From NCBI RefSeq assembly GCF_000183135.1, contig NC_014734.1:1736001-1800000 (forward strand): a stretch of 64,000 bases of DNA. The letters are read 5' to 3'. Position 1 is the first letter of the stretch. Every line of letters begins with the position of its first letter. Origin of the DNA: Paludibacter propionicigenes WB4. GTDB taxonomy: Bacteria > Bacteroidota > Bacteroidia > Bacteroidales > Paludibacteraceae. Position numbers and translations under genes: made by a program. This document shows positions 11,423 through 40,441 of this stretch, in pieces. Below the pieces are notes generated by a model. The model was not told where the DNA came from. It saw nothing but the letters and a program-made list of their open reading frames with translations, and ran no database searches.

Positions 11423-11427
11423 CAATG

Positions 11428-11497
11428 TGTTTTTCATGGTATTAGATTTAAGGTTAACTAAAAGATTGGGTTGTCGTGAGACAACCTTTCTTGTTTT
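11428..11497 (+). ncRNA. Candidate small RNA with its own promoter and terminator
   Basis: A ~70-base transcript is predicted between a good promoter (11392-11422) and an intrinsic terminator. The terminator is GGTTGTC (11469-11475), tetraloop GTGA, GACAACC (11480-11486), then a U-rich run to 11497. No start codon with a usable frame lies inside, and the next gene has its own promoter at 11679-11709. The body (ATGGTATTAGATTTAAGG near 11436) resembles leaders I associate with Bacteroidales cold-shock genes, but that is unverified recall. The start point is estimated from the -7 box. The 338-base gap 11285-11622 contains nothing else recognised. Confidence 0.5.
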
Positions 11498-11678
11498 ATA
11501 TAAATCCCGCTCCCACCCACTAATTAATCAAGCATCGCACACTTCTTTTACCAACTTCTGATAATTAAACATCCGCTTAATTAATTGATTAAGTAGAATA
11601 GAGGGCAAAAACGAAAACTTGCTTGAAGTATATTTCAAAAAAATTCACTTTAATCGATAAATTCCTTCTACGACTGTA

Positions 11679-24035: not shown

Positions 24036-25936
24036 TTACTGAAATTTACATTCAGATTTTATTATTTCAATATTTGATGGATTTACATTTGTCATTCCTT
24101 CTTTTACACGTTGACGAATTTCGTAATCCAAATATAAACTCCATCGTTGGTAATGTTCTACTTTAGGTCCTAAGTATATTTTCTTTATGTAAGGCAGAAT
24201 GTCATTGTACGATTCAATATAAAATTGTTTGCGCGGTAAATTCGATTCGTTTACTTCTCTAAATTTAATATTATCACTATTACGTGGTATATAAGTAATT
24301 ACTCTTACTTCATGTTCATAATTATAATCAGCAGATTTAAATAGATAACTTATAGTGGAGAGACGTTTAAATATTGAGTTTTCAATCTCTCTGTAAAAAT
24401 CATCCTTTTTTTGATATTTATTTCTTAGCTGAATTAACTCTAGTAATTTATCCTTCAATTGAGCTATAGCCGGTTCAATTTTATCTTTATTGTCATTGGT
24501 TATCTCTTTACTCGATTTTAACTTCTTTATGTAAACAACATTCAAAAGCTCTTCTTCATTATCGCTCATTGAAATTGATTTTTCTTCTAGCGAAGAATTA
24601 AGTTTAAAAAAATCACTGCTAATAACGACATTGCACCCCGAAGCCTCTTTTCCATTTTCATCTTTTCCATAAGTTCGCCACATGACTAATTCATCTTCGT
24701 GTGAAACTTCCCCTTCATTTTCTTCTGCTGGCAAAAATGAACCCAAGTAAACACTTGTTTCGGTTCGCTTTTCTCCACTTACATATGCTTTAGTGATTTC
24801 TTCGTTATCTAAATAATCAAAAAACACTTTACCTTCCATCGGATCATTCATGTAAATAGCATTACTATAATGCATCTTTACATTTATTTCTTTTACATAT
24901 ATATCTGCAACTGATAGTTTTGTATAATGTGCAACCATCTTTACTTTTGATTTAGCAGCATCACGAATTGATTCAATTATATTTTCAATTTCATTTTCTA
25001 ATTTGCTTTTTTCAACCTTATCTTCTTCTTCAACATTACTTTCATTAAATTGTCTTTGCTCATTTATTTTCTCTTGAGCTAATTTTATTTTATCTTCTAG
25101 AAACTTAAATCCTTCATCTAAACTAATTGCTTTTTGAAAATTCTCAATGGCATTATCATAATTACCTATTTTGAAATATAATATACCTCTGTTCCGATAT
25201 GCGTTTGCAAAATTACTGTCTAACTCTATTGCTTTATTATAATCTTTTAAAGCCTTATCTATTTCGCCTAATTTTAGCCATAAGTTTCCACGGTTATTAT
25301 ATGTAAATACATAATTGCTATCTAATTCAAGAGTTCTGTTGTAATCTACCATCGCTTTTTCATCTTCATCCAATTTTGTCCACGCAATTCCTCTATTATT
25401 GTATATATAAGCAGAATTAGGCTTTAGCTCAACAGCTTTATCGAAGTCTTCAATTGCTTTTTCACATTGTTTTAAATCCGTAAAAAATACACCTCTAGCA
25501 TTATATGCATTAACATAATTTGGATCTAAATCAATAGCTTTTTTGAACTCAACCTCCGCCTTCTCATTTTCCCCTCTTTTTACAAATACTCTAGCCCTGA
25601 GGTTGTATGCATATGCATTATTTGAGTTTAATTCTATTGCTTTAGAAGCATCTTCAAATGCTTTTTCAAATTGATCTTCTTGAAAATAAGCTCCTCCACG
25701 TTGCAAATAACCAAATGAATTATATGGATCAATACTAATAGATTTTTCAGCCAGCAGAAATGCTTTTTGCAAATCTTTATTTTTTCTTTCAAAAATACCC
25801 AAGCAGCCCAAGCATATAAATCTGAGTTATTCTGCGTAGACAATAATTCATCTGATAATAATTCAATTATCTCATCATATTTCTCTTCTTCGAATAAATC
25901 TTCTACCAACTTCAATAATTCTTGTGACTCCGCCAT
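24036..25936 (-). pseudogene. TPR-repeat protein with DUF2971 domain, frameshifted
   Basis: Two overlapping frames encode one protein. The first starts with ATG at 25936 (MAESQELLKLVEDLF...) and reads in frame to about YAWAAWVFLKEK. The second continues from NKDLQKAFLLAEKSI to the stop at 24036. Adding one A to the A6 run (T6 at 25780-25785) joins them exactly, giving ~633 residues. The product would have at least six 34-residue TPRs (YNNRGNLWLKLGEIDKALKDY is typical), an acidic linker, then a C-terminal DUF2971 domain (HYTKLSVADIYV, NDPMEG, VMWRTYG, HEVRVITYIPR). Function unknown. Base composition is more AT-rich than the flanks. A sequencing error, slippage or true inactivation are all possible. 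Confidence 0.75.
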
Positions 25937-25991: not shown

Positions 25992-26056
25992 AACCTTTAT
26001 TTTCACACTTAACACATCTTACCCCACTAATTTCAACCAAGTTATCGACAAACATA

Positions 26057-26266
26057 TTAAGTTTTGATCAAGCGGTACAATCATTTGCACGTTCATACCA
26101 AAACTTTGCCCCGATGGGGTAATCGTTTGCTCCCAATGAGCAAAACTTTAGAGATGAAGAGCAAAACTTTGCTCTGTCGGGGCAAAGTTTTACCCAAAGT
26201 TGGCAAAGTTTTGCCCCTCGACAGCAAAACTTTGCCATGAAGGAGCAAAACTCGCTTGCCCAACAG
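26057..26266. repeat. 21-bp tandem repeat array, about ten units
   Basis: Ten consecutive 21-bp units can be aligned without gaps. The clearest start at 26099, 26141, 26162, 26183, 26204, 26225 and 26246. The core is CAAAACTTTGC in most units and its complement-like form CAAAGTTTTGC in the units at 26183 and 26204, so neighbouring units can pair into hairpins. Outer units (26057, 26078, 26120) are diverged. Since 21 is a multiple of three, two frames stay open and read as 7-residue repeats (AKFCxxx on the minus strand). The array lies immediately downstream of the terminator of the 156-residue gene. Confidence 0.85.
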
Positions 26267-26274
26267 GATAAAAT

Positions 26275-26305
26275 AAAAGCCGGAGACATAAGTCTCACGG
26301 CTTTT
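26275..26305 (-). terminator. Intrinsic terminator of the 156-residue gene
   Basis: AAAAGCCGGAGAC (26275-26287), loop ATAA, then GTCTC, one bulged A, and CGGCTTTT (26298-26305). On the minus strand it ends in a T-rich run. It is 29 bases past the stop at 26335. Confidence 0.85.
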
Positions 26306-26334
26306 CCATTCACTTTAAAGGTTCACTTAAACAT

Positions 26335-26805
26335 TTACTTTTTTGATTCGGTAGTTTTACCTGTTCTAGGGAAATACGATTTCAGGTCATCGTAGATAGC
26401 CTTTGCACCCGGCAAGTTAACCGAAGCTGCCTGCTGCACATTACCATAATAAAACAAGGATGCTGCATAAGCCTCGCTGCGCGCTGCCAGTTTTGTATCG
26501 TCGAAGTAGTTGTACAGTTGATTGATCAACGATACTACGTCCACATGTCCACCTGCATCCTGAAAGTCAACATCGAATTCTCTCATATTCATGTAGCCTG
26601 GTATAAACTCAGGATTAGTTTTTGTATAGGCAAATACCTTGGTAATAAAGGTAAATGTTTTATCGCCTACTTTAAGCGCCGATGCACGATCGTCGGCTGT
26701 CATTACTACCGAATAGGGTTTAACAAGCTGAATTGCTTCATCTATTTTACTTCTCACCTGGTCGAGCACTTCCTGAGGAATGCTCTGGTTATGTATATTA
26801 TTCAT
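26335..26805 (-). CDS. Conserved hypothetical protein, 156 residues
   Basis: A soluble, mostly helical protein without signal peptide or membrane segment. Distinct stretches are MTADDRASALKVGDKTF, AYTKTNPEFIPGYM, and a C-terminal LAARSEAYAASLFYYGNV followed by NLPGAKAIYDDLKSYFP. I recall similar Bacteroidota hypotheticals with a GDKT...NPE...SEAY...PGAKAIYDDL pattern, but I know of no assigned function; this recall is unverified. It has its own terminator, and the 21-bp repeat array lies directly behind it. The association may be meaningful. ATG start. Confidence 0.8.
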   Translation of the reverse strand: MNNIHNQSIPQEVLDQVRSKIDEAIQLVKPYSVVMTADDRASALKVGDKTFTFITKVFAYTKTNPEFIPGYMNMREFDVDFQDAGGHVDVVSLINQLYNYFDDTKLAARSEAYAASLFYYGNVQQAASVNLPGAKAIYDDLKSYFPRTGKTTESKK

Positions 26806-40255: not shown

Positions 40256-40328
40256 GATCTAGTAGCTCAGCAGGTAGAGCACATCCCTTTTAAGGATGGG
40301 GTCCTGGGTTCGAGCCCCAGCTGGATCA
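40256..40328 (+). tRNA. tRNA-Lys (anticodon TTT), copy 1
   Basis: A complete 73-base cloverleaf. The acceptor GATCTAG pairs with CTGGATC (one G-U). D-stem GCTC/GAGC, anticodon stem CATCC/GGATG with loop CTTTTAA, and T-stem CTGGG/CCCAG with TTCGAGC are all intact. Discriminator A. CCA is not encoded. Confidence 0.98.
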
Positions 40329-40360
40329 CTCGTTACTAAAAGCAGCATACAAAGTTTGAT

Positions 40361-40433
40361 GATCTAGTAGCTCAGCAGGTAGAGCACATCCCTTTTAAGG
40401 ATGGGGTCCTGGGTTCGAGCCCCAGCTGGATCA
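40361..40433 (+). tRNA. tRNA-Lys (anticodon TTT), copy 2
   Basis: Identical in all 73 bases to the first copy, 32 bases downstream and in the same orientation. It has no promoter of its own, so both probably come from one transcript that ends at the hairpin at 40442-40475. Confidence 0.98.
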
Positions 40434-40441
40434 CACAATTC

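Follow-up and report, generated by a model that had tools for sequence, protein, structure and literature searches.

A small helical protein and a phased array of palindromic 21-bp sites form a probable two-part chromosomal cassette in Paludibacter propionicigenes and its relatives

Directly behind a 156-residue gene of Paludibacter propionicigenes WB4 lies a short array of 21-bp tandem repeats. The locus raises the question of whether gene and array belong together and, if so, what the repeats do. The window analysed here is the whole 64,000-nt stretch of DNA (positions 1,736,001 to 1,800,000 of contig NC_014734.1) from a 3.69-Mb genome that consists of a single contig. Its relevant features are the following.

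26052..26261, no strand assigned: array of imperfect 21-bp palindromes, with nine clear units and one weak unit at 26052-26072
26178..26219, no strand assigned: two adjoining units with an inverted core, from direct reading of the sequence
26275..26305, minus strand: terminator-like hairpin in the gap between gene and array, -18.5 kcal/mol
26335..26805, minus strand: open reading frame of 156 codons for an all-helical protein of an unnamed family, from the ORF list, homologues, a structural model (pLDDT 91) and covariation with the array

Elsewhere in the window, positions 24036-25936 encode TPR repeats fused to a DUF2971 domain, apparently frame-shifted near the start into two overlapping ORFs. 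Positions 11427-11500 match the Bacteroidetes FopS small RNA family of Rfam, and two tandem tRNA-Lys(ttt) genes occupy 40256-40434.

The 21-bp array described by the first-pass annotation is real. The nine clear units fill positions 26073-26261 and score 12-22 bits each against a matrix built from the same units. Self-identity at period 21, taken over 168 nt, peaks at 0.54 in the array and stays at or below 0.46 in the rest of the window (mean 0.28, SD 0.04); a Tandem Repeats Finder run with the default score did not list the array. The inverted core reads CAAAGTTTTAC in unit 26178-26198 and CAAAGTTTTGC in unit 26199-26219, and the exact two-core pattern is absent from all others among 150 genomes of the family. 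The terminator-like hairpin of the gene lies 9-14 nt from the array end. The same hairpin is found at locus L008, where the gene DNA is 85% identical to that of the window and the aligned array lacks two 21-bp stretches present in the window array.

Relatives of the 156-residue protein occur in 16 of 150 genomes of its own family and, by profile, in 31 of 392 genomes of its phylum. A scan of GTDB genomes yielded at least 484 encoding stretches, with 79 loci among the matches listed. Many of these loci come from what their names suggest are termite-gut bins, with the labels Treponema, Planctomycetaceae, Fibrimonas or Azoarcus, and mis-binning is possible; in the phylum sample of one Treponema-labelled genome, relatives were present in 3 of 149 genomes, that genome included. 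Plasmid, phage and viral-contig collections gave no match to the family. Several copies can occur per genome, some of them broken (up to 10 matches in one genome, including fragments), and the P. propionicigenes genome holds a decayed gene copy without an array. At one locus (L053, G275:C45:275887-276916) the gene is present as two tandem copies, and the array follows the second of them. A cassette beside a PALP-family gene is present in the genomes of loci L010, L024 and L062 and was not matched next to that gene in the other congeners compared.

The suggestion that gene and array make up a locus type recurring in Bacteroidota is borne out by this collection. Among 131 loci (L007-L137), 128 have the stop codon within the stretch and 113 of these extend at least 500 nt beyond it; an array was called from the strongest period between 12 and 59 at a score of at least 25. 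By this measure an array lies downstream of the gene in 82 of 113 loci, compared with 8 of 115 for the upstream control, the 900 nt before the gene. Four loci were counted twice, from two collections, and the downstream count without duplicates is 78 of 109. The periods are 21 (48 loci), 42 (28), 43 (4), 44 (1) and 26 (1), that is, 21, 42, 43 or 44 in 81 of the 82 arrays. A further 36 loci, three of which (all array-bearing) duplicate earlier ones, contributed 22 arrays of period 21, 42, 43 or 44, together with arrays of period 22 (three), 20 (one) and 41 (one). Homologues without nearby arrays, which had been named as evidence against the association, do exist as a minority: 31 of the 113 loci fall below the threshold, about 30% showing no array at score 25.

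Unit sequences vary between loci, and often also among paralogues within one genome. Common to the loci is a design in which imperfect palindromes recur every 21 bp, equal to two turns of DNA. In 77 tiled arrays, which were preselected for period 21 or 42 and whose tiling favours 21, 922 of 944 gaps measure 21 bp, and an array has a median of 12 units (range 6-40). Two dyad axes lie 10.5 bp apart, with 59 of the 77 arrays passing the joint threshold, and pairing about a dyad axis reaches 0.79, where the mean over all axes is about 0.25. Information peaks about every half turn. When 59 arrays (41 effective) are anchored on the bond axis, a faint common motif appears at the other axis, pyrimidine-T-pyrimidine-N-purine-A-purine, with T at position 8 (0.70) and its mirror A at position 12 (0.68; z about 9), and A..T flanks the bond axis; the units are otherwise unrelated. 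Between orthologues, the pair L007/L008 differs by two 21-bp gaps and the pair L043/L047 mainly by substitutions. The L013 array runs in one orientation in its first part and in the opposite orientation in its second, forming a long inverted repeat.

Array similarity follows protein identity weakly (Mantel rho 0.28, with 0.15 as the largest of 1000 permutations; 75 loci), and proteins about 80% identical can carry unrelated arrays. We compared the difference between two loci at each protein column with the change in the array, after regression on overall identity, in 84 loci (1475 pairs) out of the 86 whose arrays show clear symmetry. For the whole array, column 41 alone stands at the top (z 7.2, next column 3.5). 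Its signal lies at half-site positions 5, 6 and 7, with z values of 9.3, 6.9 and 9.4 (next columns 3.4, 4.4 and 2.5), and rises to 12.9 for the three bases combined, where the next column reaches 3.6. Column 147 ranks first for half-site position 3 (z 5.2; column 28, z 4.3). Column 58 does so for position 4 (z 6.0), and columns 48, 66, 67, 60, 34 and 105 reach z 3.8-4.8 at position 9; both results are past the permutation limit. Since the permutations ignore phylogeny, the contrast between columns is the better control.

The effect of residue 41 is also visible in pairs of proteins that are 60-93% identical. Where two proteins share residue 41 (n=65), the similarity at bases 5-7 is 0.73, and where they differ there (n=98) it is 0.37, at mean identities of 0.70 and 0.67, respectively; for bases 0-4 the corresponding similarities are 0.58 and 0.49. 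Loci with H41 (23) prefer T6 C7, those with Q41 (17) prefer A5 G6 T7, and those with A41 (7, six of them near relatives) prefer C5 T6 C7; R41 and K41 loci show no clear base preference. In the half of the set drawn mainly from the GTDB scan (46 loci), column 41 ranks first at bases 5-7 with z 12.0. In the family and phylum half (38 loci) it has z 1.8-2.2 and rank 4-5, below columns such as 50, 43 and 148, with single-column permutation values of 0.005-0.03. Because residue 41 tracks bases 5-7 and residue 147 tracks base 3, the 156-residue protein probably binds its own array, a conclusion drawn from sequence comparison that lends support to the first-pass guess of a protein-binding array.

No family in Pfam, NCBIfam or PHROG fits the protein. 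An AlphaFold2 model of the monomer is confident (pLDDT 91, pTM 0.68) and consists of five helices (residues 11-31, 37-42, 48-63, 74-128 and 134-142) and no strand, with low confidence from residue 150. No structural relative of the model was recognised, which by itself does not show the fold to be novel. Residue 41 sits in the short helix 37-42, beside the conserved R40. Position 40 is basic in 98% of 86 aligned rows, positions 45, 49 and 56 in 78-94%, position 144 in 79% and positions 149-151 in 51-65%; a basic residue is the rule at R40, K45, K49 and K56 and in parts of the tail. In the model, the basic patch around residue 41 would be expected to be the place of DNA contact. Residue 41, following R40, and the basic tail near residue 147 are the putative DNA-reading positions.

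The association, the phasing, the dyad symmetry and the residue–base covariation are supported by computation. The explanation that we consider probable is a stand-alone, two-part chromosomal cassette, consisting of a small helical protein that binds DNA and, behind its terminator, the array of sites that it recognises. A dimer of the protein would occupy each 21-bp dyad; the model is of a monomer, and we infer the dimerisation. In each half-site, the short helix with R40 and residue 41 would read bases 5-7, and base 3 would be read by the basic tail near residue 147. With one site per two turns of DNA, the dimers would be aligned on one face of the helix, and a cooperative coating could cover the array as a continuous nucleoprotein complex. 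Our best guess is that such a complex acts locally, as a motor-less centromere-like element or an architectural one that anchors, condenses or silences.

An explanation that we regard as rather unlikely makes the array either the binding site of a common host factor or a satellite that transposon ends have dispersed, with the gene as a hitch-hiker or user. It draws on arrays of similar design found away from the 156-residue family. One, at about 3058450-3058650 of the P. propionicigenes genome (C1), lies just upstream of a DUF6261 gene (L241:2951-3227, about 3058450-3058726). Across 16 DUF6261 (PF19775) loci (L274-L289), an upstream array of period 41 or 42 scores at least 25 in 14, with a downstream repeat of any kind in 2; 11 of the 16 are in this same genome, and 3 of 118 genomes have any DUF6261 gene. 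The second line of evidence is a 23-bp motif, TCTGACACAGTTTATTGAATAGA, with at least 49 occurrences. Of the 30 examined (L244-L273, including L243/L263 at genome C1:3173173), 19 are followed within 450 nt by an array of the 21/42 type, and a repeat precedes the motif in 3.

A long ORF common to six of the 30 motif loci encodes what we take to be an IS256-type transposase. Two of the six, in genome G136, bound a single element: they lie 1.3 kb from each other in inverted orientation, with the ORF between them, and the motif is therefore probably a transposon end. The 156-residue family occurs within 1.5 kb of the motif in only 2 of the 30 occurrences, and the solo arrays could be array-spreading elements or arrays whose gene was lost. 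A four-unit array with window-like units (L240:2958-3041, genome C1:2325457-2325540), 0.56 Mb from the window array, adjoins the motif, and no copy of the gene was matched there.

The first-pass annotation had proposed that the same array beside unrelated genes would reduce the association to chance. On this point the evidence is mixed: the four-unit array, away from the gene in the same genome, counts in that direction, and the DUF6261 and solo arrays do so in design. Against a host factor or satellite, however, stands the covariation, as neither would lead one to expect a single residue of the adjacent protein to follow three consecutive array bases. In addition, the 23-bp motif is absent from the window within 4 mismatches.

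The genes around the cassette bear on another explanation, in which the cassette is an anti-phage or genome-conflict element and the array a self-marker or a sink that holds the protein back. We consider this unlikely. In a comparison of 123 loci that excluded ORFs overlapping repeats, the commonest neighbour proved to be a DNA methyltransferase (named from its sequence), located downstream in 8 loci (L019, L071, L073, L075, L079, L080 and two more); the second-largest cluster comprises 4. No neighbour gene is thus common to the loci, and since the neighbours differ, in most places the cassette stands by itself.

Restriction, Cas and abortive-infection-like genes are more visible among neighbour ORFs than among control ORFs, although these are not per-gene counts. 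For 147 neighbour ORFs (of 219 candidates), DNA methylases, Cas1, Cas4, AAA_21 and reverse transcriptase appear among the first 25 Pfam families listed, and none of them does so for 101 control ORFs; these lists comprise the first 25 families only. PADLOC models matched number 291 and 60, respectively. However, the control ORFs also match reverse-transcriptase (DRT) and GajB-like helicase models, a methylase motif occurs in 6 of 147 neighbours and 4 of 101 controls, showing no enrichment, and the 156-residue protein itself has a single weak PADLOC match across 23 members.

The palindromic units also allow a different kind of structure, in which the array exists as RNA or single-stranded DNA, folded into a chain of small hairpins to which the 156-residue protein perhaps binds. 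Every unit is an imperfect palindrome, and the gap between stop codon and array is under 25 nt in 21 of 79 loci, leaving no terminator between them; by contrast, 45 of the 58 loci with a gap of at least 25 nt have a terminator-like hairpin in it. Complementarity of the arms within a unit is nearly equal to that between arms of different units (690 and 691 units; largest excess 0.035). A slight excess (about 0.03, t 2.2-3.0) is confined to three of ten positions at the bond axis, with none at the other axis, and G-T pairs are no more frequent than the comparison between units leads one to expect. The near-equal pairing and the lack of a G-T excess indicate that hairpins are not what is conserved. 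Rfam has no match at the window array. The folding into several hairpins proposed at first is thus possible on paper but is not the conserved feature, and we judge a hairpin chain quite improbable. The units retain their symmetry at the level of the consensus and scarcely through paired bases, which suits dyad sites in duplex DNA, and such sites are what the array units look like.

It is very improbable that the array was once coding or is kept in frame as a heptapeptide repeat: the period is divisible by three, the losses between L007 and L008 are whole 21-bp units, an open frame (81 aa in the window) is found in 51 of 76 arrays with 35 expected, and the L026/L027 substitutions lean to one codon position (6, 10, 15), but the mild scarcity of stop codons extends to all three frames of the gene strand and is not special to one, making an open frame a poor sign of coding, the L043/L047 substitutions have no codon-position bias (9, 8, 11), 20 of 944 spacings are not multiples of three, three arrays have period 22, and coding does not predict palindromy.

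The cassette as we read it has consequences beyond this locus. About a hundred of the tested loci carry the gene and an array of common design, and repeat arrays in bacteria are easily taken for mere satellites. As the sequences of protein and array vary in concert, single residues can be probed for their part in recognition. If the reading is true, it adds a new DNA-binding family with an evolving code, supplies candidate orthogonal protein–site pairs and points to a nucleoprotein element of a new kind on chromosomes. More tentatively, elements of this sort may be widespread on bacterial chromosomes as a class: in each, a small helical protein and its palindromic array phased at 21 bp would co-evolve as a private lock and key, with a readable code of one residue (H41, TC at 6-7; Q41, AGT at 5-7; A41, CTC at 5-7), and would form a motor-less nucleoprotein body. 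DUF6261 and its upstream array could then be a second, unrelated solution of the same design.

The two-part arrangement fits none of the known families tested. The array is not a CRISPR, as its 21-bp units are contiguous and lack spacers; cas1 and cas4 account for 2 ORFs each of the 147 neighbours. Nor is it a plasmid iteron origin: no Rep initiator match above the cut-off was found for the adjacent gene with Pfam (23 members) or NCBIfam (5 members), and there is no plasmid match. DUF6261 genes resemble the cassette in adjoining a tandem array, whose period of 41 or 42 is about twice 21, but there the array lies upstream and its dyad symmetry is less regular. The 156-residue protein is itself not a DUF6261 protein, with no PF19775 match in 23 members and an HHalign probability of 0.4%.

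BrickBuilt of Porphyromonas gingivalis is likewise an intergenic tandem array in a Bacteroidota genome, with a similar unit length (23 nt), and is a miniature element with inverted-repeat ends (PMC4596501). The passages of its description consulted here mention no dedicated protein gene, and the species has a single repeat sequence. A transposon-end-like motif flanks the arrays of some relatives of our cassette, whereas in the window this array-edge motif is absent within 4 mismatches.

A further close likeness is to ParR–parC of the type II plasmid partition system ParMRC, where a DNA-binding protein is encoded near an array of its own sites. ParR of pSK41 is described as binding 20-bp repeats, ParR specificity as deciding which parC is bound, and parC as usually located upstream of parM (PMC9426499). 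In contrast to ParMRC, the cassette has no motor gene (parM) among its common neighbours, the most frequent being the methyltransferase, it has no plasmid match, and its sites are 21-bp palindromes. Its protein is predicted, from the model only, to have five helices and no strand, whereas ParR is a ribbon-helix-helix protein. Thus, although the cassette departs from ParMRC in two defining features, our best reading is that it works like the DNA-binding half of ParR–parC.
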